Under the pieces are notes generated by a model. The model was given only the letters and a program-made list of their open reading frames with translations, made no database searches and was not told the DNA's origin. Below are positions 16,020-59,385 of a stretch of DNA of 64,000 bases, piece after piece; positions within the stretch are counted from its first letter, which is position 1, and every line of letters starts with the position of its first letter. Made by a program: the position numbers and the translations under genes. Origin of the DNA: Procambarus clarkii (taxonomy: Eukaryota; Arthropoda; Malacostraca; Decapoda; Cambaridae). The stretch is taken from positions 24,821,401 through 24,885,400 of the forward strand of contig NC_091193.1 in assembly GCF_040958095.1 (NCBI RefSeq), read 5' to 3'.

Positions 16020-16485
16020 TTACTTGATATCTAATAATATAAAGCTATATCTACAAGAGTAAATGTATGTTTGTTTGTATGGGGGTGGGGAGGTGTTTTG
16101 GAGTTTATATGCATACATTCCTGTAAGGAATTCTATTGCGAAGAAATTTATATCAAAATTAACGACATAGCACAAGAATTGAGGTGAGAAAACTGAAAAA
16201 AAGAGTATACACATTTTATTGCTGTTGCACAATCAAGGGTAACACTTGTCTGACTTTTGGGTTTGGTGCGGGTGGCAAGCCTGGCTTTTGGACCTTATAT
16301 GCATATACACCTATAGGGAATTCTATTGCAAACAATTTGATACCAAAATAAATGATATACAATGAAAATTGAGGTGAGAAAACTGAAGTGAGTATACACA
16401 TTTCAGTGGCTGCTCGCTCAGGCAAAACACTCGGCGAACCTTGGGGTAGGCTGGGGAGCTCACTCCGAGAACGCAAAAGTGTTAA
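16020..16485 (-). mobile_element. piggyBac-type tandem-unit MITE fragment
   Basis: Two units with TATATGCATA, GGGAATTCTATTGC and ATTGAGGTGAGAAAACTGAA, the same unit as in the elements at 35.4, 42.4, 58.9 and 63.6 kb. The right end reads ACGCAAAAGTGTTAA, and TTAA (16482-16485) joins directly to LINE sequence (ATCTATGACC), which has TTTAAATC at the matching place in other copies. The left end is not clear. Confidence 0.65.
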
Positions 16486-17999: not shown

Positions 18000-18946
18000 A
18001 AGGGCTGATCCGGGAGGCGGCCGCCACAAACTCCACAACGCGAAGTCGAGACAACAGGCTGCAACCTGCAACCCAAAGCAACACCAGAACGCCCAGGAGC
18101 AGACATACTCACAAAATAATGGGCAACCAGGAACCTGTACGATCTCCAAATCCCTGCACTCGAAATGAGCCCAAGACAAATTACCAAACACGGCAGTGAA
18201 AGCTGCAAACATCCGAATGGCACGGGCACGAGGATAGACCGCAGGCTGGCTAGACTTAACCCTACTGTCGACCTGGTAGACCCCGAGCCCTGGAAAAGGG
18301 AATGAGGGAAACTGGATCAACCCAAAGCGCATCCCCAGCCACGGTACGCAGGTAACGGTGAAGAGCCGCAACCAGATACAACACATGACGCATTCCCGGC
18401 CAAATCAACCAAGCATCAATAACCCAGGGACCCCTCCGGAATGTAGTTGTCTCGGCCTTCGCCAGAAAAGACGGAGAAGGCTGCAAACATACAAACCTAC
18501 CACCAGAACCAAAAGAGGACAAACCCCTGCGCCGAAGGAGAGCCGGAAGCTCCCCGATCCGACCCCCCCCCCCAGAGGTCAATGCCAACAAAAATACGAC
18601 CTTTGAAAAACAATCTTAAACCGAAGGGGCTACCACAAACCGAGGAGAGGAAAGATAAGAGAGCACCCTGACCAAGAACCAGGACGGCTCAGGTGGCGCA
18701 TGAGCAGGCAGGAGGTGAAACACAGCACAAGAAAACGTACGGAACGGGGCGGACATGACGTCTACCCCGAGCGTAAGCTGGAGTGGCTCCGCCAGCGCCG
18801 CATAATATGAGGCGACAGTAAGAAGCATTAATAACGGTCCAGAAAACCATGAAATGACAAGACAACCAGATGCGTAAGAGAAGACAACCAACGACGAGCA
18901 AGAAAATGGCGAATAGAAACACCAGGAAACCTCATACAGTTCTTTT
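18000..18946 (-). pseudogene. DIRS copy B tyrosine recombinase
   Basis: Minus-strand peptide blocks in order: SYYAALAEPLQLTLGVDV, APFRTFSCAVFHLLPAH, LALTSGGGGRIGELPAL, FVCLQPSPSFLAKAETTTF, WVIDAWLIWPGMRHVL, VKSSQPAVYPRARAIR, MFAAFTAVFGNLSWAH. This covers the core-binding segment, the GRIGEL box with the first catalytic Arg, and the HxxR-type region (H replaced near RARAIR). Frame changes split it into three frames. Among the copies here it is the best preserved recombinase. Confidence 0.8.
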
Positions 18947-20470
18947 TCACTCTAACGAACCCCGCTCTAGCGAATTCCCAGAAGAGCCGAACAAATCGAA
19001 TACTAAATGTTCAGTGGAACATACAAATGTTTGATTAAGCGAGGATTGTTCGGCCAAGCGGTCACCGAGACCAAGCATCGGAGCTGGCTGTCATCAACTA
19101 TGATTTGCCAAAGTGTAAACAGATATACAGTGTTTTATTATGATTATCCATTGTTTCTAGGGAAAAATGGTTGAAGGATGATGAAACGGTGTCAGGGGAG
19201 GCAGGTGGTGTCAGTGGTGGAAAGTGTTGTCAGGGGAGGCAGGTGGGGTCAGTGGTGGAAGGTGTCTGGGGAGGCAGGTGGGGTCAGTGGTGTTGTCAGG
19301 GAAGGCAGGTGGGGTCAGCTGTGGAAAGTGGTATCAGTGGTGGAAGGTGTTGTCAGGGGAGACAGGTGGGGTCAGTGGTGGAAGGTGTTGTTAGGGGAGA
19401 CAGGTGGGGTCAGTGGTGGAAGGTGTTGTTAGGGGAGGCAGGTGGGGTCAGTGGTGGAAGGTGTTGTTAGGGGAGGCAGGTGGGGTCAGTGGTGGAAGGT
19501 GTTGCAGGGAAAGCAGGTGGTGTCAGTGGTGGGTGTTGTCAGGGGAGGCAGGTGGTGTTAGTGGTGGAAGATGTCAGGGGGATGCAGGTGGGGTCAGTGG
19601 TGGAAAGTGGAAGGGAAGGCAGGTGGTGTCAGGGGAGGCAGGTGGGGTCAGTGGTGTAAGGTGTTGCCATGGAAGGCAGGTGGTGTCAGTGATGGAAGGT
19701 GTTGCCAGGGAAGGCAGGTCGGGTTAGTGGTGGAAGGTGTCAGGGGAGGCAGGTGGGGTTAGTGGTGGAAGGTGTTGTCAGGGGAGGCAGGTGGGGTTAG
19801 TGGTGGAAGGTGTTGTCAGGGGAGGCAGGTGGTGTCAGTGGTGGAAGGTGTCAGGGGAGGCAGGTGGGGTTAGTGGTGGAAGATGTTGTCAGGGGAGGCA
19901 GGTGGGGTCAGTGGTGGAAGGTGTTGTCAGGGGAGGCAGGTGGGGTTAGTGGTGGAAGGTGTTGTCAGGGGAGGCAGGTGGGGTCAGTGGTGGAAGATGT
20001 TGTCAGGGGAGGCAGGTGGGGTCAGTGGTGGAAGGTGTTGTCAGGGGAGGCAGGTGGGGGTCAGTGGTGGAAGGTGCTGTCAGGGGAGGCAGGTGGGATC
20101 AGTGGTGGAAGGTGTTGTCAGGGGAGGCAGGTGGGGTCAGTGGTGGAAGGTGTTGTCAGGGGAGGCAGGTCGGGTCAGTGGTGGAAGGTGTTGTCAGGGG
20201 AGGCAGGTGGGGGTCAGTGGTGGAAGGTGCTGTCAGGGGAGGCAGGTGGAGTCAGTGGTGGAAGGTGTTGTCAGGGGAGGCAGGTGGGGGTCAGTGGTGG
20301 AAGGTGCTGTCAGGGGAGGCAGGTGGGGTCAGTGGTGGAAGGTGTCAGGGAAGGCAGGTGGGGTCTGTGGTGGAAGGTGTCAGGGGAGGCAGGTGGAGTC
20401 GGTGGTGAAAGGAGTTGTCAGGGAAGGCAGGTGGAGTCAGTAGTGGAAGGTGTTGTCAGGGGAGGCAGGA
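18947..20470 (+). mobile_element. Minisatellite-bearing Tigger-like element, copy V1
   Basis: A 230-base lead (CACTCTAACGAACCCCGCTC, TGTTCAGTGGAACATACAAA, GTGTAAACAGATATACAGTG) is followed by a long minisatellite (19178-20468). The same lead followed by the same minisatellite occurs at 26508 and at 30669/32366. The lead resembles a pogo/Tigger-type terminus. The right boundary coincides with a switch to DIRS gag sequence; no right terminal repeat is visible, so it is probably truncated. Confidence 0.75.
19178..20468. repeat. 38-bp minisatellite (dimer of 19-bp units), about 34 units
   Basis: The unit is GGTGTTGTCAGGGGAGGCA followed by GGTGGGGTCAGTGGTGGAA, each 19 bases. The two halves are related, so the 38-base unit is a higher-order dimer. 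Some units drop one half, especially near 19530-19720. Because 38 is not a multiple of three and the strand is G-rich with no stop words, all three frames stay open for long distances; these frames are not genes. Confidence 0.93.
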
Positions 20471-20474
20471 GAAG

Positions 20475-21102
20475 CCTTGGGAGGAGGAACAGGCTCGAAA
20501 ACCTCCGTCCCCAACCCTAACGGGGCAGCCCCCGAAACCGCCCGAGTCTCGGCCCTAACTAAACCCCGCCCTGACCCCGAAACCCACAGACGGTCAGGAG
20601 CCGGGAACAGGGAGGGAAAGGTGCGAACAGCACCTAGCCAAAATGGGGTAGCCCCAGGGCATCCGGGTGGGAAACAACCTAGCGCATTGCAGCAACCTGA
20701 ACCGAGCTTGCAACGCGGATGCCACTTGTACTCTGAACAGTAAGGACATCAGGAGAGTTCTGGAGAACAAGCAGAGAACACAACTCGCAAGACTCTGGGT
20801 CAAGGTGTCAGCGACCAAACAGGCAGCATAACGGAGGGAAAAGTGGTGACTGTCACCTGAGACGAGGGCACAGCAACCAACGAACCCGCACAACACAGGA
20901 TGGAACCCGGAAGACACATCCAATGGTCCACCGAGCCCCAACAGGGTTTTCCAGGGCCTGTAGGCTGACTGCTACGGGTAGCCCAGGCAAGGTGTTGCTA
21001 ACCGGTTAACACCCAAAACTAACACGGGGTAGATGCCAATACTGAAAACCCCTGCAACACGTACACTCACAGGGACCTAGCAGAGGGCCACCAAACACAG
21101 AG
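20475..21102 (-). pseudogene. DIRS copy B gag-like remains
   Basis: Plus-strand text such as GGAACAGGCTCGAAAACCTC matches the gag region of copies C (28868) and D (38783). It lies between the minisatellite element and the SINE at 21103. No continuous frame is left. Confidence 0.6.
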
Positions 21103-21367
21103 GGGGCCTCGTAGCCTGGTGGATAGCGCGCAGGATTCGTAATTCTGTGGCGCGGGTTCGATTCCCACACGAGGCAGAAACAAATGGGCAAAGTTTCTTT
21201 CATCCTGAATGCCCCTGTTACCTAGCAGTAAATAGGTACCTGGGAGTTAGTCAGCTGTCACGGGCTGCTTCCTGGGGGTGGAGGCCTGGTCAAGGACCGG
21301 GCCGCGGGGACACTAAAAAGCCCCGAAATCATCTCAAGATAACCTCAAGAATCATCTCAAGATAACA
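21103..21367 (+). mobile_element. tRNA-derived SINE with intact tRNA-like head
   Basis: Positions 21106-21175 fold as a tRNA: a perfect 7-bp acceptor stem (GCCTCGT / ACGAGGC), A box TAGCCTGGTGGATAGCG, anticodon loop TTCGTAA (CGT, threonine-like) and B box GGTTCGATTCC. A tRNA-unrelated body follows (CCCCTGTTACCTAGCAGTAA, GTCAGCTGTCACGGGCTGC, GAGGCCTGGTC) and a repeated tail CATCTCAAGATAACCTCAAG. The tail is shared with the SINEs at 29262 and 38208, and a variant at 41280. It is inserted in DIRS copy B. Transcription by RNA polymerase III is expected from the A and B boxes. Confidence 0.9.
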
Positions 21368-22250
21368 CTACCAGTGGAACCATAGCCACACTAGGCAGAC
21401 CTCCACTAGGCAATGAAAATAAAAGAAAAGAAAACCCCCACAAAAGTATACCTTCCCCAGGGGTAACAGGAACCGGTCATTGCATAGGTAGCAGGTCGCG
21501 CAACACCTTGATGCCCTAACCAGCACAATACCAGTCCCTACCCGAGACCAAACAAGTGCCCCAAGCCCCAGCTGGCCCCAAGGGCGAGGCAAATGCTGAG
21601 CATCAAGAACCTCTACGGGAATGGCTCCCGAACGCCCCAGGGAAGATAACCCTGTCACGCAGGGGCAATACTCACAGAGCGCTTAGGGAAGGAAGCCCCT
21701 AAGCACATGCAGCCCCGGTACTGATAAGGAACACCTGGCCACCGCACAACACAAAAACACAGCAGTGAGTGCCACGAAGGCAAACACCACCTAGTAAACT
21801 GAGGACAGAGAAGCATCTGTCCCGGTTGACATTAGCTTACGAACTGGAGTGACATGCAGCCGGTGTGTTGAGGTCTGAGGCCCCCCTCCCACTCTCAGGG
21901 AGAGGGAGGGCTGCGTGGACGAGTGGCGTGGCAGTAGTGTGTTACGTTTGCTTGTTTGCTTGTTTCCTTGGGATTGTAGGGAGTTATACCTCTCTGTTCG
22001 ATTTTTGTTGTTAGTTTTTTACCATGTGGAGTTTGTTTTGTTATGCCTACCTAACCCCAGTCAATGGCAGATAAGGAAAACCCCCAACCACAAGGGGGTT
22101 TTCCAGGCCCATTGCTCCCTGCCATCTCTCTGAAGGGGCCCGGTTCTGGCTCATGGTCCCTGGTAGGTCTGAACTCTATAGTTAATGTCCCGGTCTAATA
22201 TAATATACCCGATAAGCTCCAGGGAGCCATAGGGGCTCCCCACAGAATTT
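21368..22250 (-). mobile_element. DIRS copy B, gag start and left terminal repeat
   Basis: The segment continues the DIRS copy beyond the SINE. The terminal repeat portion (about 21840-22250) contains CCTACCTAACCCCAGTCAATGG, split here as the CACCCAG-type block, GGCCCATTGCTCC, GGTTCTGGCTCATGGTCCC and ends GGGCTCCCCACAGAA. It is inverted with respect to the right end of copy A. Confidence 0.7.
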
Positions 22251-22254
22251 TTTT

Positions 22255-23065
22255 TTTTTAACATTGTTGAAAGTAACTGATAATAACATTAGGCAATGCA
22301 TTTATATGATATATAATAAAATTGAGCATAATAACATACTTACTCATTATTATGTGTTATTATGTATTACTCACCAATGCTACAAAGGCACCAGCTGCAT
22401 ATCCACTTTGTAGACACTTTTTACTACTATTCTTCTTCTTTGTGTGTAGGACAGATACTTACATCTCTTTATTGTTGCATTATCCATCAATTCCAGTTAA
22501 TAGGAGCTGTTCTCCCTATCAACAATTTTTTTTTTTTAATATTCATCTAAAATCAATTTATAAAAATATTTTGATGAAAGTTTCACGACACTGCAGCCAA
22601 TAAGTTGGAGATTTGTTTAAAATTTGTAAGTAACTTTTACATAATTCAACTATTTTTTGCTTCCCTGCCTCTTAGGCTGAGCAGTTTAAGGGTTAAGACC
22701 AGGTATACACCACAGCAAAAATAAACTTCAATTCAAATGTGACATACCTCATCAATTTTATATAAATCCTCCAAAATAATTATATGTATAATACATTAAA
22801 AGTTACAGGGGTGAAAATGAGCTGGTATGAAGACATAATAGTGGAGGCAAAACAACAATGATATTTACAAGAGAGATGTAGAGATGGTAAATGGTATATA
22901 TGAAGGAAAAGTAGAAAAGATGGAAAGAAAGATTGAACTGATGGAGAGAATACAGGAAATTGTAGGTGACAATGATGCAAAATGGGTGATGTGGATGAGT
23001 AAGATTGCTACAGGCATCTTGCTGGATATTTCTAAAACGTTCACGAGACATGCTGTTAAGCTTAC
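22255..23065. other. Intron DNA, nothing recognised
   Basis: AT-rich sequence just downstream of TMEM11 exon B (on the minus strand). Poly-T runs at 22249-22260 and 22526-22538. No gene or known repeat seen. Confidence 0.4.
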
Positions 23066-23178
23066 CTGATATTTGCAACAGGGATCAAACTGCCATGATG
23101 CGGTATAAACTCCAGTGCAGAATAACGATAAAGTGCCAAGTGGGACACAAACATAAGCTGTGTCTCGCCATATCAGAC
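23066..23178 (-). CDS. TMEM11: TMEM11 middle coding exon (B)
   Basis: A 113-base exon. The minus-strand acceptor is CATTCTTCAG and the donor is CAG|GTAAG. It starts with two bases completing the Gly codon from exon A and ends in phase 0. The peptide reads LIWRDTAYVCVPLGTLSLFC then TGVYTASWQFDPCCKYQ. SWQFDPCCKYQ is identical to human TMEM11, and the preceding VPLGTLSLFCTGVYTAS is the second predicted membrane helix. Confidence 0.95.
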
Positions 23179-23986
23179 CTGAAGAATGCAACCGTTCAAT
23201 CTTTTGCAAAAAGAAACAATTGCTGGACAAGATGATAATAAAAGGCAGATATTTTACTCTAGTACATGACAAGTTTGCTACTTAAGAAAAATAAATGGAT
23301 AGAAAAATTAATGATAATACAGCAGTAGAAACTAAGAATAGTGAAGACACAAAGTAATATTTTGAGAAATACAATAACTTAGGTGAAGCCAGTCCTGAAT
23401 GTGAGTGATTTTGGGTAACAAATTCAAGCTTCAGTAATTTTGTCTTTAATACAAAAATTGTGGGTGCGCAGGGTTAGGTTCGCCTGTTTACAAGTTGCTG
23501 CACAATATTAACACAAACAAGATGTGTGGTGAGAGACCTAAATACCATGATTTGAACTGCCCTTTATTTTACATTTTTGCATTCATTCTTGCATCCTCTA
23601 AGTACTAGTATTCTGCAATTCACTGTGTACTGTATTTGTGGCAGGAGGAGAATTAACACTTTCATTCCTTAGGGATGGAGATGACATCCATAAATAACTC
23701 TGTGAATGTTCCTTAGGGACGTAGGTGACGTCCAAATTTAAAATATTTGTTAAAAATCCATTATTTATCCGATCATTATGGGACGCATTTTAAACTTTGC
23801 GCCAACGTCTTCCCATTTTCTGTTGTGGCCCATGTGGCATCAAGGCACCGCTTGCCGCAGTAGGCCCATTGTTACTGACTCGTGACTGCTGTGGCCTCCC
23901 CTCGTCTCGAACACATGTGCCCGTTCTGGCTATTTCTCCTCAGCTATATTTGTTATTGCCTTTATACACTATACATTTACTGCAAG

Positions 23987-26147
23987 ATGGATAGTGATCA
24001 AGAACAGTGCCATCCCAGGACAAAAGCGGTGAAAGAAACACATCTGAGGGATAAGTTAAGTAGTGTGTGGCAAAAGTACAGCAAGGTCAAACTCACACCA
24101 ACAAAATTCCAGGCTATATGTGACGAATTATCTGATCTTGATCTTGAAAGTGCCAAAAGTGACTGTGTTGTAGATAGTGAGTTTGTTGAAACTGAAACAG
24201 CAGGTGAGGATGAAATTGAAAGTGAGGGGAGTGATGATTTTGATGGTGATACTCCCACAGCCACAGGTACAGGGCATGCTCATACCCCACGCACCAGTTA
24301 TGGTGAAGCCTGGTCTACTGACAACACTCCATCATTTGTAGACAGTTTAACTGGAACACCAGGCTTGACTGTACCAGTACCAACCACTGTTCTTGGATTT
24401 TTACAATTTATTACATGAGATTTGCTGAAATATATGGTATATGAAACAAACTTGTATGCATCACAAAGCAACGCCAATGTTTCTCAAGCATCCAACTCAA
24501 GCAATACGTGGGGATGAAGTGAGTGTAAAAGAGCTTGCTAGATATTTTAGACTGACAATGTTGATGGCCATTATGAAGTTGCCAGTGATGAGAATGTACT
24601 AGCAAACAGGTAAATTTTGGTATGTACCTTCTTTCAATACTTATATGACTGCGAAACGATATGAACTGATTTTGAAGTATTTTCATACTTATGACAATAA
24701 AGTCATTCCAAAAGACAATCAAGACCGACTAATAAAAGTTAGAACATTCATGGAATATCTCTCACATAAATCCAAAACATTATACAATCCTCAGAAAAAT
24801 CTGTGTTTGGATGAAGGCACAATGTAAAAATCTGTGTTTGGATGAAGGCACACTGTAAAAATCTGTGTTTGGATGAAGGCACACTGTAAAAATCTGTGTT
24901 TGGATGAAGGCACACTGTAAAAATCTGTGTTTGGATGAAGGCACACTGTAAAAATCTGTGTTTGGATGAAGGCACAATGTCATGGAGGGACCATCTAGCT
25001 TTCAAGGTTGATAATCCAAATAAACTTGATAAGTATGGAGTGAAGCTGTACATATTAGCTGAATCCCATATTGGTTACATCTATGATTTTGAAGTGTATG
25101 CAGGAATTGGGAAGACAATGATTCAAATGGTTATGGGCTTGATTGAACCACTGACGAACAAAGGTTACCATTTATATATGGATAACTACTGTAACTGTTC
25201 AACTGAGTGAAAAGCTGCTTGAACAAAATGTATACACCTGTGGTACTCTCAGATTGCAGCACGGTGCACCAAAAGATCTTCAGCTACAAGCAAAGGGTAA
25301 ACTGCCAGTAGATAAAACTGTATTCCGAAAGAAGGATAATACTTTTATAATTCTGTGGAAAGATAAGCGCGGTTTTACGCATCACAACTTGCCACAATGC
25401 AGATACCTGTACACAACAAGTGGAACGAAGGAAACGAGTGCACAAACCTGATGGAACATGTTCATTGCAACAGGTCATTGTGAACACACCAAACACAATC
25501 TGTGACTACAATAACCACATGAAAGGTGTTGATCACTTCGACCAAATGGTAAAATATTATCATTTCACGCGGAAAAGTCACACGTGTACAAAGAAAATCA
25601 CGTTCTACTTTATGCAAATGGCTATCCATAATGCTTTTGTGTTATACAAGTACTACACAATGGATACAAAGAAACTCACATTGCTCAATTTCCATAAGTG
25701 ATCATTTCGTCACTACTGAATTCTAAGTCTAAGAATTGGCCTCTCCAAAATGACAACATCATACATGCTCATGATGTATATGAGAGCAGATCTACTGGCG
25801 ACAATGTTGCAACACCCGGATCATCACGTGTGAGGCGGCCACTATTCCCATCTTCACCTCGAGATGAAAATTCATCATCTGACTCAGAAGACGAGAGTCA
25901 GATTACTCTTTCTGGTGCTGCTGCTAGGAGAAACCCTCATATTGTGGATAAACCATAACGTCTGAACAGGAACTTGAACCATTCCCTAATTCGCATCAAG
26001 AAAGGTCTGAAGTGTCGTGTTTGCTACAAGTCTGGTAAAAGGAAGGATACTAAGTATAAGTGTAATTCATGTGGTGTGTCACTGTGTGCTGCACCATGCT
26101 ACAGTGCATACCATCACAAGAGGACATACTGGGTGGCTAAGCAGTAA
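23987..26147 (+). pseudogene. piggyBac (PGBD4-like) transposase, decayed
   Basis: The frame opens with MDSDQEQCHPRTKAVKE, an acidic N-terminal region, then FLQFIT followed by a stop. Further frames give YMVYETNLYASQS, RYELILKYFHTYDNK, KNLCLDEGT (first catalytic Asp), DKYGVKLYILAESHIGYIYD, YHLYMDNYC (second catalytic Asp), DYNNHMKGVDHFDQM (third catalytic region) and a C-terminal cysteine-rich domain with CRVCYKSGKRK, KCNSCGVSLC and CYSAYHHK. The order is that of piggyBac DDE_Tnp_1_7 plus CRD. At least five stops or frameshifts, and a tandem expansion at the first catalytic Asp, make it inactive. Confidence 0.9.
24796..24980 (+). repeat. 31-bp tandem repeat within the piggyBac catalytic segment, six copies
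   Basis: The phrase CTGTGTTTGGATGAAGGCAC begins at 24801, 24832, 24863, 24894, 24925 and 24956, exactly 31 bases apart. Each copy encodes the LCLDEGT catalytic-Asp peptide in one frame. The outer copies have GCACAATGT while the inner ones have GCACACTGT. Five extra units (155 bases) shift the frame by two, so the expansion is disabling. Confidence 0.95.
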
Positions 26148-26507
26148 TGCTTATCCCCCTCCACTCCATCTATAAAACATGGCTTGAGAAACTTCAGGAA
26201 ACCTTTTTTGGAGCAGGTGGAGTGGTTCAACCTAATGCTCAACTCATGCTCTACAAACATCATTGGGTGGTAAGTACACACTTTTTTTATTTATACATAT
26301 GATATTGTGGTAAAAACACTTATGTGAAGGAAGCAACACAAAGAAGAATGATATTGTGTCATAAATAATGTATTGGTAATGTTGTTCTTTCACTTGACCT
26401 TATATACATATATCCCTTTAGAGCATTCTATTGCGAACAATTTGATACCAAAATGAACGACCTAAGACAAAAATTTATACAATCAAAATATTATTATAGA
26501 GCTTCCT

Positions 26508-26968
26508 CACCACTCCCGGAATTCGAACCCCACTCTAGTGAATTCCCGGAAGAGCCGAATAAATTGAATTCGGTACTAAATGTTCAGTGGAACATATAAT
26601 TGTTCGATTAAGCAAGGATTGTTCGTCCAAGTGGTCACCAAGACCGAGCGTTGGAGCTGGCTGTCATCAACTATGATTCACCAAAGTGTAAACAGTTATA
26701 CAGTGTTTTGTTATGCTTACCCATTGTTCCTAGGAAGAAATGGTTGAAGGCTGATAAAATGGTGTCAGGAGAGGCAGGTGGGGTCAGTGGTGTCAGGTGT
26801 TGTCAGGGGAGGCAGGTGGGGTCAGTGGTGGAAGATGTCAGGGGAGGCAGGTGGGGTCAGTGGTGGAAGATGTCAGGGGAGGCAGGTGGGGTCAGGGGAG
26901 GCAGGTGGGGTCAGTGGTGGAAGATGTCAGGGGAGGCAGGTGGGGTCAGTGGTGGAAGGTGTTGTCAG
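26508..26968 (+). mobile_element. Minisatellite-bearing Tigger-like element, copy V2
   Basis: The lead (CACTCTAGTGAATTCCCGGA, TGTTCAGTGGAACATATAAT, GTGTAAACAGTTATACAGTG) matches V1, and the minisatellite (26760-26968) has about seven short units, some missing one 19-base half. The left neighbour is piggyBac P1 3' sequence and the right neighbour is DIRS copy C reverse transcriptase, so both sides are breakpoints. Confidence 0.78.
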
Positions 26969-27097
26969 CGCATGCAGGACCGCAGCCAAAAAAAAAAAAA
27001 AAAGAGACTCCAGAGGGAGAGACAAAGAAGCAGTCCGAGAGTCCCACACAAGACCCAGTCAGGTCCAAACCTGCGAGGGTACCAGATAGGACTTCTG

Positions 27098-27878
27098 TCA
27101 GTTCACCAGGAACCTGAACCCGGCTAGCTGGGAAAGCACCAAACCCCTGACAAGCAGACACGCGGACCGACTGGGAGCCCAGACCAGCCAGTCATTGAGG
27201 TAAGCCAACACCCGAACACGTAACAGATGCAGACGGACCACCGACGACCCTGCAGGTGGGTCATAAGTGTGTTCACACACTTACGACCTGGGTAAGGCGT
27301 GTTAACATGCGAGGTGACAGATTAAACCCGAAAGGGAGACAACGAAAGTGATACCTCTGATGCCCCACAACAAACCCGAGCCAGTCCCTGAACCTCGGAT
27401 GAATTGGGACATGCCAACATGCGTCCTTGAGGTTCAGGGACAACATCCAAGCGCCTGGCTCCAACAGAAGCCAGACCTGGGACAGAGTGGTCATCCAAAA
27501 GGAGGGGCAAGAAACCCAGGGTTCAGATGGGACAAGTCCAGAATGAACCGCAGGTCCACACAGTCCAGTTTCAGAACTGGAAAGAGGTGAGAAACCCACC
27601 TGAGGGACGTCGTCATTTCGACCACGCCCAAGCACACCTACTCCAAGACGACCTGACAGAGCGCAGGAGAGCTGGCCTGACCTGCGAGCCCCGAACCTCC
27701 TGAAGGAGGAGGAGCCACCGCAGGTTGCAAAAAACGACATGAAAAGCCCATGAATCACACCGTCAACGAGGCGATCAGCGAAAGGGCCAACGAGTGGAGC
27801 CCTGGCACGCCCCATCTGGGACGAACCCACCTGGGACCCCCTGGAGGACCAAGGGCAGCTGGAGGAAGTTGCTTGCAT
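27098..27878 (-). pseudogene. DIRS copy C reverse transcriptase
   Basis: Minus-strand blocks: SEPWVSCPSFWMTTLSQVW, EPGAWMLSLNLKDACWHVPI, HPRFRDWLGFVVGHQRYHFR, CLPFGFNLSPRMLTRLTQVV, then in another frame VLAYLNDWLVWAPSRSACLL and SQLAGFRFLVN. SLNLKDACWHVPI is RT motif A and LAYLNDWLVWA is motif C with the usual YLDD changed to YLND, which would remove a catalytic Asp. This RT type (DLKDAYWH and PFGL) is typical of DIRS elements. Frameshift near 27280 also disables it. Confidence 0.85.
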
Positions 27879-29260
27879 ATACAGTACTGCTCAAATGCAG
27901 AGGCTGCAAACAACAAAGGACAAAAGAGCGAAGACAATCTAAGAGCCAGGGGCCCAAGCAGATTCCAAGGAGGAAGCGAGCACCACCTGTCGACATGCAA
28001 GACGTGCAGCGAAAAACAGCGACAGCGCATCCCCGCAGGATCGGTGCAAAAAGCTTCAAAAGTGCAGATGACGCACAAGTAACCAAGACCAAGGCGCCGA
28101 CCCCGGAACAGCCCTAAGCGCCTTATACATCCTCCAGAAACCAATCCGAAGACAGCTCAAGAAGGGAAAAGAAATGCAGGACCGAAGCCAACGAGCCCTG
28201 CATGCACAAGTTCTCAGCCACAAGTGCAGCTGACAGCGAAGGAACCTACACGTGAAGCTGAACAGTGCCAACATCCCGCAGAAGGGCCGAAGCGAAAAGG
28301 CACCCCATTACGGTATTCAAAGTTGTCCCCCAGGTCAACCTGTTCCACAGCCAACGCCTCACATCTCTCAAGCATGCGGGTACGTAAGGTGTCCCAAGCA
28401 GGGGGCAGTACGCAAGCCAGGACGACTCCAGAACCTCATAACAAACCCAGTATGCAAACGAAGTTCCAAACCTGAAAAAAAAAGACGGATCCATTATAGA
28501 GGCATACTACAGGTTGTGCAGAATGTAAGCCACAACAGCTGCCCGCACCACAATAGGCAAGACGCGGAAACAAAACACCTCCGGAAAGACGGAACCGAAC
28601 TCTAATCCAGCTTGTACGTAGAGGGGGGAAAGGAAAACCCAACTCCATGTAACAGTAAGCCCCGCTCGGAGGGTCGGAAAACCCAGGCAGAGTCCAATGG
28701 GGCCCAAGGCCCCCAAGCCAGCTCCTCCCCAACCCCAGGAGCCTCCAAATCAGGCCCCAGGGGCGAGTCTTCCTTCAAAGCCCCGGCCTCCCAAGAAAAA
28801 GCCGGGGCGGCCGAAATAGCAGGAAGAGAATGGGTCCACTGGTCAGGCCCCGGAGCTATGGTTGGAGGAACAGACTCGAATCTCTCTGTCGTCACCCCAG
28901 AAGGGGAAACCCCCAAAACCGTCCGAGTCTCAAAAACCTCTAAACCCTGCCCCAACCCCGAAGCCCTCAGACGCTTAGGAGCCAGAAGCATGGGTGGGGG
29001 GAACCAAATGAACCACAGCAGGGGAAGAATGAGGGGGTGTGGACAGAACCAAGGCTGAAGCGACCAACACCCCTAAGTTCAAGTCTTTATAAGCAAAACG
29101 GGGCAGCCTCGGGAAGCAACCAACCGAGCACGTTGCAACAACTTAAACCTATCCTGCAATGTGTGAGCCGCTCTGCACCCGAATAATGTCATCATCGGAT
29201 TGGGTGAATTGAGTCACAAACAAGCAACAAAGCTCGCAAGACTCAGGGTCGAATGTGTCA
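27755..29260 (-). pseudogene. DIRS copy C gag-like region
   Basis: The minus-strand pieces APAFSWEAGALKEDSPLGPD, LHVLHVDRW and GVGFSFPPSTYKLD are shared with copies A and D. No continuous frame. Role by family: structural RNA-binding protein of the particle. Confidence 0.6.
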
Positions 29261-29261
29261 C

Positions 29262-29440
29262 TTCTTGAGGTTATCTTGAGATGATTTCGGGGCTTTTTAG
29301 TGTCCCCGCGGCCCGGTCCTCGACCAGGCCTCCACCCCCAGGAAGCAGCGCGTGACAGCTGACTAACAACGAGGTACCTATTTTACTGCTAGGTAACAGG
29401 GGCATAGGGTGAAAGAAACTGTGCCCATTGTTTCTCGCCA
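29262..29440 (-). mobile_element. tRNA-SINE, 5'-truncated, in DIRS copy C
   Basis: The tail TTGAGGTTATCTTGAGATGA on the plus strand is the inverse of the tail of the SINE at 21103, and the body (CCCGGTCCTCGACCAGGCC, GACAGCTGACTAAC, TACCTATTTTACTGCTAGG) follows. The tRNA-like head is missing. The 5' junction is a short hairpin: TTTCTCGC then CA then GCGAGAAA, so the break point was copied in inverted form. DIRS sequence resumes at ACTGACCCA. Confidence 0.85.
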
Positions 29441-30189
29441 GCGAGAAACTGACCCAACAGGCAGCACGACGGAGGCAAAAACAATGAGCGTTGCCCTGAG
29501 ACAAGGCGACAGAGCAACCCTCAAACTCACACACGGCGAGAGGGGACTCAGGAGTCGCATCCATCGGACCTGAGTGCCCCCATGGGGTTTCCCAGGGCCC
29601 CCAGATTGGGTCTGCTTAGGGTAATCCCAGGCTGGGTACTGTTAACCGGCACCCAAGCTACCAATCAACACTGCTAAAGCTGAAACTCCAAGATGTGTCC
29701 ACTCACGAGCACAAAGCAAGGGGTACCACCAAACAAAAGCAAATCCTAGAATAACAGGGGGTAGGAACATCAAGGCAGACCCCCCCCCCCCCATCAGGCA
29801 AAAACAAAAAGAAAAATCTCTTAAGGACAGCGTACCCAGAGGGAACAGAATCGGCTGCTGTTATAGGTGAAAACTAGCTGCACAGTATCCCGCACCCCGA
29901 CCAGTGCAAAAACTACCACTTACCCCAACTCAAGGCAAACAAGGGAGGAAACCCCAAAAAGCACTCGTGGTGGTCAATCACCAAGCAGCAAAAGACCAAC
30001 AAAAGTAGACCCCAAGGTGACTTGTGGAAGAGAACCCCAAGCCCCAAGGGTGGTACTTACAGGGCACTCAGGGAAGGTGACGCTAAGCACATGCAGCCCG
30101 AGTACCACAGAATATTACTCCCAGCTCGCACACCACAGTAAGAGTAGTACTGAAACAGGGAACAGCACAATACAAGAGTCTGGAGCTGG

Positions 30190-30652
30190 AGCCACCCAAC
30201 CTTGCCGTTTCCCATCAGCCAAAGAACTGGGGTGTGGATCGCCGGTGTGGGGTTTTTGGCTCCCCCTTCACCCCTCCCGGGGAGGGGGGAGCTGCGCAGA
30301 CATACGGCGCGGCTTGTGTGATGTCATGCTTGTTTGCTCGTTTTCATTTAGGGAGTTCTGTCCACTCGTTTGTCTATTTTCGTCGGTTTCACCAGAATAG
30401 GAGGTTGTTTTGGGGCGCTTACCTTTCTGGGTGCCTGTCCCGGTCGATGGCAGATAAAGAATGCTCCAAAATCACAAGTGCATTTCAATAGGCCATTACC
30501 CCTCGTGGCTCTCTGAGGGGGCTAGTTTATGGACTGTGGTCCCCGGTAGTCCTAGAACTCCCCCCACATCGACTGATGCCAAATGTAGGGATATCCATAT
30601 CAGCCTGGATAGCTCCGGGGACCGAAGGGGCGTCCCCCAGAAATAATTATAA
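30190..30652 (-). repeat. Left inverted terminal repeat of DIRS copy C
   Basis: Carries the GGCTCCCCCTTCACCCC block, GCTTACCTTTCTGGGTGCC, GGTCGATGGCAGATAAAGAA and CAGCCTGGATAGCTCCGGGG blocks in the order of the other terminal repeats. Confidence 0.8.
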
Positions 30653-30772
30653 AATTTAATAGTGCATCCTCACTCTAACGAACCCCGCTCTAGCGAATTC
30701 TCGGAAGATCCGAACAAATTGAATTCGGTACTAAATGTTCAGTGGAACATACAAATGTTCAATTAACCCTTA

Positions 30773-32365
30773 AAGTGCGCATCACGTCATATGACGTGTT
30801 GGACGTTGTTCCAGTCAACTGCGCATCACGTCATATGACGTGTTGGAGTACTACGCAAGATTTAAACGGCCCGCGGATACATGGGGTTCACTACACCATC
30901 AGGGCTCTTGTAAACAGACGCCATTTTAAAAAAAAATCGTGGGCCAAACTCCCGGGTGTTATTGGCCTCAGTATTGAGTGAGCAACCAAGCCTGACGCAC
31001 GCAGCATGAGCTAACAGCACTGCTGTTCAGCTTGTGACCACAGCATCGCCTAAAAATGCCAAAATATACTTGTTCATGCTATTATGTAGTGATGATATTA
31101 TTACAGAAGACCCCTGACTGTGATAAAACTGACCAGGGTTCTGATAATAGCAGAATTGTGGTGATATTTAGTGCTGTGCGCCATGGAGTGAGGAGTAATG
31201 CTGTGGGAGGGAGGATGGTGGCGATGTCTTCTGACTGTGTGTGGCCACCTTTTATTGACTGCACTCACCATACCAGCTTAGTGGTTCGCTATGGTGAACA
31301 CAAATGTAGATACTTATATATAACGTGTGTATAGAGGGTATAAACAGCAAGAGAAGGTTGGGAGCCGCCATTTTGGTGAGGGCGGTGGCGTCGTCTGCAT
31401 GACGCCACCGTGCAGACGACGGTGTTCTTTACTGGTTACCACGATGGTCTTTGGGCACCATACCGGTTTATTTGTACAAGTATGGTGAATAAAACAGATA
31501 GATATTTACTGGTATATATAATGTCTGTATATAGCGTAATAACACCACACAGTATTGTTGGAGGAGAAATAATAGTGCGTCTGGCCTTGAGGGCGGCAGC
31601 CATCAGCTGACTGTGTGAGGTCCTACGTCTTTGTGCCTTTACTCACCATACAAGCTTAGATGTACAGTTATGGTGAACAAAACATGTAGATAGATACTTA
31701 TATATAACGTCTGTATATAGTGAATTATAGCAAAAACAGTATTGTGGGAGGAGAATGTGGGTGAGTCAGATGACTTGAGGGAGGGCGGGAGTGGCTGGCT
31801 GGTACACGGCGGTCGGTCACTCGTTACTTTTTGACTCATAATAGCTACTTAGTGGTTCGTTATAGTGAACAAAACATGCAGATACTTATATATAACCTGT
31901 GCTTATAGTGTAATAACCGACAAAGTATTTGTTCACTGATTGATGAACATAATTGAATCAACAATATGCACACCATATTTTTGAGTACAGCAATGATTCA
32001 CTCATTTTATTATATAAATATATCAAATTACACACTATTGAATAATATTACAGCAAAAACACTATGAAAAATCAATCAGAGACATTGAAATAATTAGGTA
32101 ATTATCTCTTTGTGGCAACTCCGGCCTGACAGCTGGCGAGCAACAGACCGCCTGGGACACACGCTGAGTCAGCGCCTATTTTTTGCCAGATTTCCCTGCT
32201 CTATAGCGGGCAATATATGCCACTTACAATTTTTTTATTATTTTTCCCGTGATCAGTGAACACAAATTAACAGGTTAGGAAGAAAAAATAATTTTTTTTT
32301 TTTTCAAAATTACATGCGCCTGTGGGGAAGAAAGGATATTATACCCCTAGCATGTTAAGGGTTAA
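30773..32365. mobile_element. TTAA-flanked non-autonomous piggyBac-type element X1
   Basis: TTAA at 30773-30776 and 32362-32365 flank a 1.6-kb body that begins CCCTTAAAGTGCGCATCACG and ends CATGTTAAGGG. Sister copies V1 and V2 show the empty site (GATTAAGCAAGG). A subterminal block with the perfect palindrome CACGTCATATGACGTG occurs twice (within 30782-30848). The middle (31060-31930) is a set of degenerate ~230-base tandem units with TTATATATAACGTCTGTATA. No transposase gene is present. Confidence 0.9.
31060..31930 (+). repeat. Tandem ~230-base units inside element X1
   Basis: Each unit has ACCAGCTTAGT-like, GTTCGTTATGGTGAAC-like, GATACTTATATATAACG, TGTATATAGTG and CAAAAACAGTATTGTGGGAG phrases. 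Roughly four units are visible. The same units occur about six times in element X2 (55000-56270). Confidence 0.75.
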
Positions 32366-32522
32366 ACAAGGATTGTTCGTCCAAGCGATCACCGAAACCG
32401 AGCTATCATAGTTGATAACAGCCACTGTCATCAATTATGATACACCAAAGTGTAAACAGTTGTACAGTATTATATTTGCTTACCCACTGTTTCCAGTGAG
32501 AAATGATTGAAGGATGATAAAA

Positions 32523-33617
32523 TGGTGTCAGGGGAGGCAGGTTGAGTCATTGGTGAGGGTTGGAGTCTGGGGGGCAAGTGATGTCAGTAGTTGGGGGTTT
32601 AGTGTCAGGAGGCAGGTGGTGGAAGTTATTCTCATTGGGGGGTTGTCAGAGAAGACCTGGTGGTGTCAGTGGTGGAAGTTGTCAGGGGAGGCAGGTGGTA
32701 TTAGGGGGAGACAGGTGGTGTCAGGGGAGGCAGGTGGTGTCAGGAGAGGCAGGTGGTATCAAGGGTGGCAGGTGGTGTCAAGGGTAGCAGGTGGTGTCAG
32801 GGAGGCAGGTGTTGTCAGGGGAGGCAAGTGGTATCAGATGGTGTCAAAGGAGGCAGGTGGTGGTAGTTATTCTCATTGGGGTTGTCAGGAAAGACCTGGT
32901 GGTGTCAGTGGTGGAAGTTGTCAGGGGAGGCAAGTGGTGTCAGGGAGAGACAGGTGGTGTCAGGGGAGGCAGGTGGTGTCAGGAGAGGCAGGTGGTGTCA
33001 AGGGTGGCAGGTGGTGGCAGGTGGTGGCAAGGGGGGCAGGTGGTGTCAGGTGTTGCCAGGGGAGGCAGGTGGTATCAGGTGGTGTCAGAGGAGGCAGATG
33101 GTGTCAGGGGAGGCAGGTGATGTCAGGGGAGGCAGGTGATGTAAGGGAAGGCAGGTGGTGTCAGAGGAGGCAGGTGGTGTCAGGGGGAGGCAGGTGGTGG
33201 CAAGTCGTGTCAGGGGAGGCAGGTGGTGTCAGGTGTTGTCAGGGGGAGGCAGGTGTTGTCAGGAGGAGGCAGGTGGTGTCAGTGGAGGCTGGTGGTGTCA
33301 GGTGTTGTCAGGGGAGGCAGGTGGTGTCAGGGGAGACAGGTGGTGTCAGGGGAGGCAGGTGGTGTCAGGGGAGGCAGGTGTTGTCAGGGGAGGCAGGTGG
33401 TGTCAGGGGAGGCAGGGGAGAGGCAGGTGTTGCCAGGTGTTCTCAGGGGGAGGCAGGTGTTGTCAGGTGTTCTCAGGGGGAGGCAGGTGGTATCAGGGGA
33501 GGCAGGTGGTGTCAGGTGTTGTCAGGGGGAGACAGGTGGTGGCAGGTGTTGTCAGGGGAGGCAGGTGGTGTCAGGGGAAGCAGGTGGTGTCAGGGGAGGC
33601 AGGTGGGGTCAGTGGGT
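32523..33617. repeat. 19-bp minisatellite, about 55 units
   Basis: The dominant unit is GGTGGTGTCAGGGGAGGCA (19 bases), with variants GGTGTTGTCAGGGGAGGCA and GGTGGTGTCAGGGGGAGGCA. It is the single-unit relative of the 38-base dimer array at 19178. A 170-base segment containing TTATTCTCATTGGGG is itself duplicated at 32620-32700 and 32870-32940. Open frames through it are artefacts. Confidence 0.92.
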
Positions 33618-33717
33618 GAGCTCTGGTTATCAGTTATCTGCTAGTTGGCAATACGTGGCTGGCGCCTCCATACTTCCACCTCGATAGTTCACTCACTGTC
33701 TGCTTTTCACCAAATTA

Positions 33718-34054
33718 GGAGAGAAAATTTTACCATTTGAGTGGTTTGTAACACATCACTCTATCATAATCCTTAGTCAAAATGAAGAATGCATAATAAA
33801 TGGGGGTATCAGTGGCGAGGGGGATGTATTAGGGGGGTTAGAAAGTCAGCTAGCATCTATGTTTTTTGTTTTTGTTTTTTTGTTGTTGTTTTTTCGTTGG
33901 GTGTGTTGAAGGAGACGCCTCCAAGTTTAGCCCTTCTCCCTGCTGCTACCTCAATACACCCCGTACTAAACTCGAGAATATTTTACTATTTTAGTTGCTT
34001 GTAACAATGCTTTATTATATTATGTAGTCAAAATGAAGAATTCATAAAAAATGG
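33718..34054 (+). repeat. Diverged duplicated AT-rich segment between minisatellites
   Basis: GAGAAAATTTTACCATTTGA, TAGTCAAAATGAAGAATGCA and a GTATCAGTGG end at 33718-33815 correspond to GAGAATATTTTACTATTTTA, TAGTCAAAATGAAGAATTCA and GTGTCAGTGG at 33975-34060. It suggests an older, larger repeat period in the element. Confidence 0.65.
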
Positions 34055-34490
34055 AGGTGTCAGTGGTGGGGGATGGTGTCAGTGGTGAGGGATGGTGTCA
34101 AGAGAAGTTTGGTGGTTGGGATGGTGTCAAGAGAAGTTTGGTGGTTGGGATGGTGTCAAGAAAAGTTGGTGGTGGGGGATGGTGTCAGTGGTAGGGGATG
34201 GTGTCAGTGGTGGGGGATGGCGTCAGTGGTGGGGGATGGTGTCAGTGGTGGGGGATGGTGTCAGTGGTGGGGGATGGTGTCAGTGGTGGGGGATGGTGTC
34301 AGTGGTGGGGGATGGTGTCAGTGGTGGGGGATGGTGTCAGTGGTGGGGGATGGTGTCAGTGGTGGGGGATGGTGTCAGTGGTGGGGGATGGTGTCAGTGG
34401 TGGGGGATGGTGTCAGTGGTGGGGGATGGTGTCAGTGGTGAGGGATGGTGTCAGTGGTGGAGGATGGTGTCAGTGGTGGGGGGGGGGGGG
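34055..34490. repeat. 19-bp minisatellite GGTGTCAGTGGTGGGGGAT
   Basis: At least 15 near-perfect tandem copies of a third 19-base unit, with flanking longer variants (GGTGTCAAGAGAAGTTTGGT). It ends in a run of 14 G. The 19-base period and the GGTGTCAGTGG core link it to the arrays at 19178 and 32523. Confidence 0.93.
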
Positions 34491-34529
34491 GGGGTCAAGA
34501 GAAGTTTGGTGGTGGGGAATGGTGTCAGA

Positions 34530-34643
34530 GAAGCGACTGATGACAAAGAGCTGGCAGATTATTATCGACACCTAAAGGGCATGAAAGATATTATAATGAA
34601 GCAGTGCACAACGAAGAAACAAACTATAATTCAAAAGTTTTAG
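34530..34643 (+). pseudogene. Transposase-like C-terminal remnant
   Basis: About 38 codons in one frame: EATDDKELADYYRHLKGMKD, then IIMKQCTTKKQTIIQKF and stop. The acidic-to-basic helix followed by K-Q-T-x-I-x-K-F resembles the C-terminal tail of Tigger/jerky-like transposases. It is the only protein-coding hint for the minisatellite-bearing element. The frame runs out of the minisatellite, so the start is not real. Confidence 0.45.
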
Positions 34644-34650
34644 TACAGTT

Positions 34651-35417
34651 TCACAGTAGGCCTTCAGGACCAGCACCCAGCACTAGCATGGACTCCCTTT
34701 GTGAGTCGGGTGCAATTTTTCCTAATGCAAATGTGTCCTGGCATATGTATAAAAAATATATATATATTTTTTAAGAAGGTTGTTGGGGCCGAATGGATGG
34801 AACGACTTCCATACTGGAACGAATCGGCTTCGAGGAGAACTACCCAGGACGTGTACAACACTACATCAAAAATGTACCGTCCGGAAAAGGAACAAAGAAA
34901 AGGCCGTAACCAGGGCCGTAATCCATAGCATAGCCAATAAGCCCATACTAATATACACAACAATGAGTAGTATAGAGGAAGGAAATATGGAAACATGCAA
35001 TGAAAAGACCCTAAATATAGTCCAAGCACCAGTAGCTAGTGACAAGAGAGTATAATCCATTAGATGAACTAATAAGATCTAGGAAACAAGTGTTAACAGA
35101 ATGTACATGATCAAATATACACACAGACACTCCAATGTACATATAAGGGTGCAGCCAGGCACTGAACGACAGTCAATGAAGGAGTGTCCAGATAGCATTG
35201 AGTCAATAAATGAGTGCCCAGATAGCATCGATATAAGCACAAAGTAAGATCACGTTAAGATATATGCAAATGGGCAAAACAACACATCACAAACAATACC
35301 CAACACTCACCCAAAAAATGAGAATCATCACCCGGCTGACAGTGTTGCCAGACCGTATACTCTCACCTGTAGAACGTAGACACTATCGTGTCATGACACA
35401 GCTGAGCCATTTACAGG
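34651..35417. other. Unassigned intron DNA
   Basis: No recognised gene or repeat. A TATATATATTTTTT tract lies near 34750-34772. A phrase at 34781-34850 could be a remnant of an unknown element, but I cannot place it. Confidence 0.35.
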
Positions 35418-36089
35418 GTAATACTTTTGCGCCTCGGGCATGTGCGCCACAAACTTAGAGGTCATGCCCCCAGTTTGCAGGAGAACGAGAGGCGACACCG
35501 AAATGTGTATACTAGTTTCAGTTTTCTCACCTTAATTCTCGTGCTACGTCGTTCATTTTGGTATCATTGTGTTTGCAACTAAATTCCCTGCAGGTGTATA
35601 TGCATATAATGGCCAAAAGCCCAGCGTGACTCCCCGCAGTAAAGCCTAAAGTTACCTACGAACGAGCATCAATTTGCTCACCACAGCCTAATGTGTATAC
35701 TCGTTCAGTTTGATAACATAAATTTTTGTGTTACGTCTTTCATTTTGGTATCAAATTGTTTGCAATATAAAAGGCGCGTATTTAAAGCTATTCCCATAAT
35801 AATAGAGCAATAACTGAAATTTTAACAAATATTATAATTTTGGACGCTCATCATTACAAAATTATTTATATCTTTCCAGTGTTTAGACATCAATTTTTGT
35901 GTTACATCTTTCATTTTGGTATCAAACTGTAAGCACTCTAAAGGCGCTCATTTTTAAACTATCCCGAAGTCGATTGGATAATAAATGAATTTTATACAAA
36001 AAAATTTTTATCAGATGCCAGCACAGTCCAATGCACTCAAGACAAAAAAATCAGACGCCATGGTCATTCGAAGAGTGCAATAGTGTTAA
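35418..36089. mobile_element. piggyBac-type tandem-unit MITE
   Basis: Left end GTAATACTTTTGCGCCTCGG (TTAA changed to GTAA), right end GAGTGCAATAGTGTTAAC with TTAA at 36086-36089. Between them are 3-4 units each containing ATTTTGGTATCA, TTGCAA and TATATGCATA-like words. The same layout is at 42435-43463. The ends resemble the piggyBac copies (TTAACACTTTCGC at 63112), so this is probably a deletion derivative of that family. Confidence 0.75.
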
Positions 36090-58944: not shown

Positions 58945-59385
58945 GCCAATTGGTACTTGTTCACGGGTAACTTGGCCGACTTTAGGCTTTGCTGTGGGGA
59001 GTCATGCCGGACTTTTAGACATTATATGCATATACCCTTGTAGAGAATTCTATTGTGAACACAATGATACCAAAACGAATGACGTAGCATAAGAAATAAG
59101 GTGAGAAAACTGAAACGAGTATACACATTTTACTGATTTTGCATGCTCACGGGTAACTTTGCCGACTTTAGGCTTTGCTGTGGGGAGTCACAGCAGGCTT
59201 TTGGACCTTATATGCATATACCCATGTAGGGAATTCTATTGCAAACACAATGATACCAAAATGAATGATGTAGCACGAGAATTAAGGTGAGAAAACTGAA
59301 ACGAGTACCTGTAGACACTTTTTGGTGTCGCCGCATGCTCACCTGCACCGAAGCACATCATTTCTGCGGCGCGTGATAGTATTAA
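58945..59385. mobile_element. piggyBac-type tandem-unit MITE
   Basis: Two units with CTTTAGGCTTTGCTGTGGGG, TTATATGCATATACCC and AATTCTATTGTGAACACAAT; right end GCGTGATAGTATTAA with TTAA at 59382-59385. It belongs with 35418 and 42435. The left end is unclear. Confidence 0.65.

Follow-up and report, generated by a model that had tools for sequence, protein, structure and literature searches.

The three minisatellite loci V1, V2 and V3 of Procambarus clarkii are very probably old members of a non-autonomous Tigger/pogo family that holds hypervariable minisatellites internally, that would depend upon transposase supplied in trans, and whose arrays would change length in place. The loci lie within the window, i.e., the whole 64,000-nucleotide stretch of DNA that was analysed (contig NC_091193.1, positions 24,821,401 to 24,885,400); window features are on the + strand unless stated otherwise. 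The original prediction placed one shared lead at three loci, and this lead was found, starting at 18937 in V1, at about 26499 in V2 and at 30661 in V3.

The 5′ end and leader of V1 (18937..19187) open with the TIR start CAGTTCTTTTTCACTCTAACGAACC after TA and run into array A (19188..20469), a minisatellite of about 34 copies of a 38-bp dimer with alternating a and b half-units (TRF: 19188-20469, 38 bp x 34.4, score 1418). For V2, whose outermost bases are diverged, the 5′ end and leader (26499..26759) have a start that was read by eye and could be aligned from 26524; its array A (26760..26978; TRF and unit comparison) is a dimer of 35/38 bp with TRF periods of 19/35/54/89 bp at 26760-26968, and its best match among the other arrays was V1 (94.9%). 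Both elements are 3′-truncated and stop at array A; a TA precedes the 5′ end of V1, whose 3′ end is missing. The TRF score threshold for window arrays was 50, and their scores are expected to far exceed chance level.

V3 is a nearly full length element (30661-34832) with a piggyBac-type interruption. Its 5′ TIR and first leader part (30661..30766) end in TTAA (30763-30766); the insert (30767..32361, no strand assigned; 1,595 bp) has CCCTTAA...TTAAGGG ends and a duplicated TTAA target, one at either side, at a place where the V1 and V2 leads run uninterrupted. By eye, these ends resemble those of another locus, L011, which encodes a DDE_Tnp_1_7 transposase. The leader remainder (32362..32522) was placed by lead alignment. 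Because the insert splits the V3 lead, array A begins at 32523 and not straight after 30766. Array A of V3 (32523..33615) starts as degenerate repeats and continues as 19-bp units, regular from about 32680 (TRF: 32680-33612, 19 bp x 50, plus 29- and 48-bp periods). The inter-array module (33616..34052) is homologous to locus L022, was seen by eye in L005/L006, and is partially duplicated (33721-33826 resembles 33974-34075). It leads into array B (34053..34482), with 19-bp GGTGTCAGTGGTGGGGGAT units and a 29-bp variant at 34089-34187 (TRF: 34056-34100 and 34169-34482, 19 bp x 16.5, 97% matches, score 600). The 19-base variant predicted at 34055 is thus a real 19-bp array, but it is the second array of the V3 element rather than a separate one, and the element extends beyond the predicted end at 34490 to 34832. 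A transposase C-terminus remnant (34521..34643; 40 aa, then TAG) matches the C-termini of long open frames found at other loci (frames of 681 aa, 67% identity), and the 3′ tail (34555..34832) contains family tail matches at 34555-34626 and 34730-34832. No window copy has both ends, V1 and V2 being 3′-truncated and the 3′ TIR of V3 being cut off at 34832.

A complete copy (L029) was found elsewhere; it measures 3,195 bp, reads TA-CAGTG...CACTG-TA, and carries two minisatellite zones (38 units of 19 bp in zone A and 53 units of 21 bp in zone B) between its ends, in agreement with the prediction that the arrays are carried inside the element. Its TIRs are imperfect, with the outer 26 bases identical at 18/26, and a strict CENP-B box sought in the TIR was absent. 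In a second young copy, L031, array A is 137 x 19 bp; this copy sits in a TA repeat, and its flanking TA is uninformative on target duplication. The partner locus L033 has a 641-aa ORF with CENP-B_N, HTH_Tnp_Tc5 and DDE_1 domains, all three above Pfam cut-offs, with the DDE_1 match covering 1-177/177, and its best named relatives are tigger transposable element-derived protein 7-like. The L033 5′ end is TA-CAGTG and its lead is 98% identical to that of L029; the comparison of partner and non-autonomous termini covered this 5′ end, and the family tail matched partner loci only over 73 coding bases at 82%. The TIRs and duplicated TA target of L029 are those by which Tigger/pogo elements of the Tc1-mariner superfamily are recognized and, with the partner transposase domains, they support the predicted Tigger-like element as a probable Tigger/pogo member. 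Helentron/HINE elements have termini without TIRs and make no target duplication, and membership in that group was rejected upon the TIRs and TA duplication of L029.

Repeats expand at several sites within the family. Zone A is located either close to the 5′ leader or where the ORF begins, zone B is ahead of the ORF 3′ remnant, and the partner has a 51-bp coding repeat at its ORF end. Array A follows mid1, at the place of the ORF start, in the young copies L029 and L031 and directly follows the lead in V1-V3; as its place differs between them, it is not one fixed site. Array A ranged from 281 to 2871 bp (about 15-151 units), with 62 distinct lengths in 67 copies; these came from the first 91 of 100 listed mid1–array A junctions (184 in all), 24 of the 91 being without an exact mid2 within 6 kb. 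Array B ranged from 371 to 2713 bp in 66 copies, with 34 of 100 mid2 matches lacking a paired tail and 14 tails at the end of the list omitted (two of the omitted lengths, 1644 and 916 bp, are inside the observed range). All array lengths derive from a single assembly, in which they may have been collapsed. The motif GGCAGGTGG may resemble the human minisatellite “core”.

The 38-bp dimer of V1 and V2 had been predicted to be a local evolution to a higher-order unit, and this was rejected. The dimer occurs 121 times genome-wide (≤2 mismatches) on at least 14 contigs, i.e., the window contig and 13 others, and the 38-mers of L009 on contig C40 match V1 at 95.7%; it is therefore older than the V1 and V2 insertions. 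Array B of L012 (38 bp x 104) matches itself at 99.8% versus at most 80.5% for any other array compared, supporting a probable local array expansion there. For a 30-mer specific to the array of L046, 40 of 44 exact copies lay in C19:11006260-11022200, a span of 15.9 kb, and the 3.6 kb of this locus that was inspected was array. The predicted role as a satellite seed is thus plausible, given this one locus, yet by extrapolation the young arrays add up to only about 0.38 Mb, some 0.0095% of the genome. In size and abundance the family is short of a classical satellite, whose arrays are long, abundant and heterochromatic, the largest array among those inspected spanning about 16 kb and the young members making up that same small share.

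Such data are consistent with a scheme in which the ORF-bearing partner would supply transposase in trans to move the non-autonomous copies, and transposition would scatter the arrays along with them. Array length would then shift at the insertion site through processes that G-rich repeats may favour, replication slippage or unequal exchange being the likeliest. The leader-site units, which differ between copies (19, 38, 61 and about 140 bp), could represent repeated re-expansion of one seed, and an occasional array may run away towards satellite size, as possibly occurred on C19 (~16 kb).

We considered if the arrays might instead be functional transposon parts (transposase-binding or promoter/enhancer sites) kept under selection for mobility. 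Leader repeats recur in ORF-bearing and non-autonomous copies, as such a function would predict, and the internal repeats of Galileo hold transposase-binding sites, as cited in PMC4079207; yet unit sequence and length vary between copies, and the best 12-base TIR match was 9/12 for unit A, a score attained in 38 of 100 shuffles, and 8/12 for unit B, attained in 95 of 100. Since shuffles match the TIR as well, TIR-like motifs in the units are unsupported and the units appear unlike extra TIR-type sites. Selected function seems an unlikely account of the arrays.

The three same-strand copies within 16 kb could have arisen by local segmental duplication of one lead-plus-array block, but this is very improbable and was rejected from the lead identities and flank comparison. 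The leads of V1, V2 and V3 are 86-88% identical to one another and those of the window, V1 included, share 86-91% identity with leads from elsewhere (contigs C40, C52, C6 and C1), the window copies being no closer to each other; the V1/V2 similarity starts in the TIR region; and comparison of the 1-kb flanks of the three copies gave no match in the same orientation, the sole match being an inverted, dispersed repeat of <75 bp between the V2 5′ flank and the V3 3′ flank. The leads, no closer mutually than to those of other contigs, together with the unmatched flanks, argue that V1, V2 and V3 are separate old insertions and not local duplicates.

Array-bearing copies are supported as dispersed across the 4.03-Gb genome, as predicted for dispersal by a transposon. 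Genome-wide matches numbered 184 for the mid1–array A junction (≤2 mismatches), 42 for the junction of mid1 with the transposase ORF, 184 for mid2 (≤1 mismatch) and 174 for the tail; reversed-pattern controls gave 0 matches for each of the four. The lead-array pairing drew on 100 of the 378 leads and on a portion of the 267 array matches, those on contigs C1-C19, where 30 arrays were sampled with the young consensus unit as query. The check proposed with the prediction, whether arrays elsewhere have the lead, left the claim standing: a lead was upstream on the same strand in 29 of the 30 (28 within 5 kb, one 16.8 kb off), the remaining array (L037) having Tigger mid1 only. Conversely, 14 of 20 lead loci (L009-L028) were without an expanded array, 12 of these 14 representing one amplified composite family, and among the matches listed 18 of 78 young leads had no junction, with mid2 and/or tail within 4 kb in 8 of the 18. 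The lead-to-junction distance had an interquartile range of 643-680 bp in 49 copies, 5 of which were at 1.7-7.5 kb. Conserved junctions inside the element, element sequence at other arrays and copy-number variation, the marks of a TE-borne minisatellite, were thus all found. That the minisatellites are independent, with the Tigger lead next to them through chance or a preference for inserting into minisatellites, for which the leads without arrays and the leadless L037 might speak, is scarcely credible and is largely refuted by the conserved junctions, complete copies holding the array between the element ends in fixed order, as well as by the same-strand leads and by comparable repeat motifs in the leaders of two among the three partner loci (TRF found no tandem in the leader of the third, L034).

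The preferred reading, a non-autonomous Tigger/pogo family with internal minisatellites, joins a phenomenon already known, i.e., transposon-borne tandem repeats, as in Tetris, oyster Helentrons and a Xenopus MITE. Tetris of Drosophila virilis, in the account excerpted from PMC4079207, is a foldback non-autonomous DNA transposon whose internal TIR-220 tandem repeats seed kb-size satDNA; like the crayfish Tigger it is non-autonomous with internal tandem repeats, but these are about 220 bp and within the TIRs, with no autonomous copy found, whereas the crayfish repeats are of 19-38 bp (A, B) and internal, and there is an ORF-bearing partner. The Cg_HINE Helentrons of Crassostrea gigas, in passages of PMC7492417, hold satDNA-like central repeats in non-autonomous elements genome-wide and share with the crayfish family dispersed, DNA-transposon-borne arrays and, exceptionally, two repeat clusters in order; they are Helentrons with a longest array of 29 monomers, whereas the crayfish element is of TIR/TA type with about 15-151 units in array A. 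Nearest in kind among the systems compared is the Xenopus tropicalis Tc1-mariner MITE that holds the miDNA4 satellite (brief description in PMC9659126; Scalvenzi and Pollet model as cited in PMC7492417), likewise a Tc1-mariner-superfamily element with satellite DNA inside; the crayfish family differs in its Tigger/pogo branch, its several repeat zones and the presence of a partner. Minisatellites can also derive from Alu, SINE B1 and LTR elements, according to part of a review (PMC6947457), in which a TE segment likewise seeds the minisatellite; those origins are retroelements, whereas crayfish arrays ride in dispersed TIR-element copies. Among the matches listed from the open-access literature, no title or abstract opening describes Tigger with internal minisatellites, and “Tigger”, “pogo” and “minisatellite” have 0 occurrences in the available text of PMC12628747. 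What is new here is that the carrier is a Tigger family, that it has an ORF-bearing partner, and that its repeats expand at several sites.

A single genome shows several transposon-to-satellite stages (unexpanded leader, short array, hypervariable dispersed arrays and a runaway of 16 kb), and it also contains an ORF-bearing partner of the array-bearing copies. The survey of crayfish satellitomes including P. clarkii (PMC13130569, main text) found minisatellites (<100 bp) to be the largest component, with a mean unit of 35.2 bp in Cambaridae, and describes Class II elements as lacking or low in number; the words “Tigger” and “mobile” occur 0 times in that main text, and the passages of it that were examined connect no arrays with a DNA transposon. 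Against this scarcity stand 3,461 first-look candidates for PF03184 (DDE_1) in the genome here, of which 150 were scored. The Tigger family is a testable source for part of crayfish minisatellite richness. Tentatively, and with some doubt, Tigger-type transposons could be a recurrent source of the minisatellite-dominated crayfish satellitome, in which a G-rich leader seed would re-expand with new units in each lineage, transposition would disperse the arrays, and occasional runaway would bring them to satellite size; if so, read-clustering surveys would log the satellites and miss the Class II elements that originated them.

The arrays of the window lie in three copies of a Tigger/pogo element (V1-V3). 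Alignments of the lead, comprising the Tigger 5' end and leader, start at 18937 (V1), 26524 (V2; about 26499 by eye) and 30661 (V3), and TRF recovered tandem arrays at 19188-20469, 26760-26968, 32680-33612 and 34056-34482, confirming the common lead and the arrays of the original prediction. The V3 lead breaks off at 30766 and picks up again at 32362; the 1,595 bp between (30767-32361), with TTAA on either side and ends CCCTTAA/TTAAGGG, is a nested piggyBac-type element. Its 5' end resembles by eye that of the element at locus L011, which encodes a DDE_Tnp_1_7 transposase, a type that piggyBac carries; blocks 76-86% identical to the insert are found at 54782-56640. Downstream of array A (the 19-bp-type minisatellite near the leader or at the ORF start) V3 continues with a module common to locus L022, array B (the second minisatellite, 34053-34482), a 40-residue remnant of the transposase C-terminus (34521-34640), and a tail that breaks off at 34832. 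Since array B sits between the module and the remnant and tail, the variant at 34055, given in the original prediction as a third 19-base variant, belongs to V3 itself.

A complete young copy on contig C1 (L029) measures 3,195 bp end to end (TA/CAGTG...CACTG/TA), with 18 of the outer 26 bases identical between its two ends, and carries 38 x 19 bp in array A and 53 x 21 bp in array B; array A of the young copy L031 (C13) reaches 137 x 19 bp. With the V3 transposase remnant as a guide, 681-aa open frames were found about 3-4 kb downstream of leads. The frame at L033, one of three ORF-bearing loci, is 641 aa counted from the first ATG and has CENP-B_N, HTH_Tnp_Tc5 and DDE_1 domains; the L033 5' end is TA/CAGTG, and the leads of L033 and L029 share 98% identity. 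We take L033 as the putative autonomous partner of the array-bearing copies, the likeness being read at the 5' end only. Two of the three partner loci contain a leader tandem with a unit of about 138-144 bp, repeated 5.5 times in L033 and 4.5 times in L032 and composed of GGTGTCAGG-type motifs; TRF detected no leader tandem in the third, L034. The 51-bp tandem at the ORF end, coding for 17-aa TGPAPSTSKDSPEDAQA-type units of the transposase C-terminus (4.4 copies, L033 3767-3991; 11.6 copies, L034 3112-3701, reverse complement), is a third variable site of the Tigger family.

The genome (4.03 Gb, 2,308 contigs; window, C44:24821401-24885400) was searched with patterns from successive element segments, and each reversed-pattern control gave 0 matches. 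Allowing up to 2 mismatches, there were 378 matches to the lead, 184 to the junction of internal segment mid1 with array A, 42 to the mid1-ORF junction (junction matches, not 42 intact genes) and 121 to the 38-bp dimer; with up to 1 mismatch, mid2 gave 184 and the tail 174. A three-unit array pattern had 267 exact matches, and those listed supplied 30 arrays on C1-C19 (31 entries, two being one array); the pattern is a young consensus, so that diverged arrays are under-sampled. A listed lead was upstream on the same strand for 19/30, and inspection of the remaining 11 revealed one for 10, at 80-99% identity and in one case interrupted by an insert; the array at L037 was without a lead but had Tigger mid1. 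Arrays elsewhere thus have the lead in 29/30 cases sampled, 28 within 5 kb. The C19 array has its lead 16.8 kb upstream (read in L047, with foreign sequence coming next); one array-specific 30-mer, with 44 exact genome matches, 40 of them over C19:11006260-11022200, extends to within about 4 kb of that lead, and 3.6 kb read inside this interval was array throughout.

The converse, that leads have arrays, was true of most young copies and not of the older ones. An array lay within 8 kb of 53 of the 78 listed young leads, 49 by exact junction (5 of these 1.7-7.5 kb apart) and 4 by array match; 7 had the ORF, and 18 had no array or ORF listed, 8 of the latter having mid2 and/or tail within 4 kb. 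The other 10, with none of array, ORF, mid2 or near tail among the matches listed, may represent truncated, solo-end or variant copies. Among the 20 best matches to the V1 lead (L009-L028), an array of at least 5 copies lay no more than 1.3 kb from the lead in 6 but not in the other 14, of which 12 are members of one amplified composite family. This composite repeat containing the Tigger lead (L014-L028 except L018), with a mostly unexpanded leader and a 5' flank common to most members, occurs as amplified copies of high identity on C15, C35, C37, C38, C41, C55, C69 and C375; a frame with an RVT_1 reverse transcriptase adjoins the C375 copy (L008). Separately, L009 (247-533) shows a tandem TIR duplication, three 96-bp units including the Tigger 5' terminus at the element start, and in L030 two young leads, separated by about 3.5 kb, have opposite orientations.

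Array A directly follows the lead, or a short degenerate stretch, in V1-V3, L009, L012 and L013, and follows mid1, where the partner ORF begins, in L029 and L031; the family therefore has more than one A position. By mean best 38-mer matches the dimer arrays (V1, V2, L009, L013) group together, the young single-unit arrays (L029, L031, L035) form a separate group, and V3 A best matches L045 and L046 among arrays other than itself. The original prediction had the dimer evolve locally in V1 and V2; because it occurs on at least 13 contigs besides the window's own among the matches listed, it was inherited and not made in the window. Local homogenisation is apparent in L012 B, judged from its self-match (99.8%, versus at most 80.5% elsewhere). 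As leader-site units differ among copies (19, 38, 61 and about 144 bp), we read them as one repeat-rich seed that may have been re-expanded repeatedly.

Array lengths were derived from junction positions alone, calibrated on L029, and may include insertions. Array A spans 281-2871 bp (median 879; 62 distinct lengths in 67 copies) and array B 371-2713 bp (66 copies), the two being uncorrelated (rho 0.16, p 0.28, 48 copies); the lead-to-junction distance, measured in 49 copies, runs from 615 to 7544 bp with an interquartile range of 643-680 bp. Mean lengths multiplied by 184 extrapolate to about 0.38 Mb of arrays, or 0.0095% of the genome.

The arrays are internal, with conserved junctions and lengths that vary between copies, and an ORF-bearing relative has the same 5' end. 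Array-bearing copies would be mobilised in trans, and array length would be altered in place through slippage or unequal exchange. Strong G skew marks each of the five arrays checked: two-tetrad G4-type motifs take up 73-99% of the G-rich strand and are absent from the other, which is compatible with slippage, not proof of it. Array units showed no resemblance to the TIR beyond shuffles.

Other window repeats include a dispersed family whose units, about 190 bp long, are arranged in tandem (58961-59307, a 186-bp tandem; 16096-16403; 42525-42847; 35496-35652; 63630-63928), a piece of which also lies just upstream of V2, and a 31-bp tandem x 6 (24795-24980, 98% matches) whose unit is unlike the Tigger units.

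This kind of element is already established by Tetris (PMC4079207), oyster Cg_HINE (PMC7492417), a Xenopus Tc1-mariner MITE listed in PMC9659126, and SINE/LTR-derived minisatellites (PMC6947457). A 2026 crayfish survey including P. clarkii (PMC13130569) describes minisatellite-rich satellitomes with Class II elements lacking or few. The crayfish family differs from those four systems in belonging to the Tigger branch, in having several expansion sites within one family and an ORF-bearing partner in the same genome, and in its degree of length variation, and is thus a variant of an already known kind.
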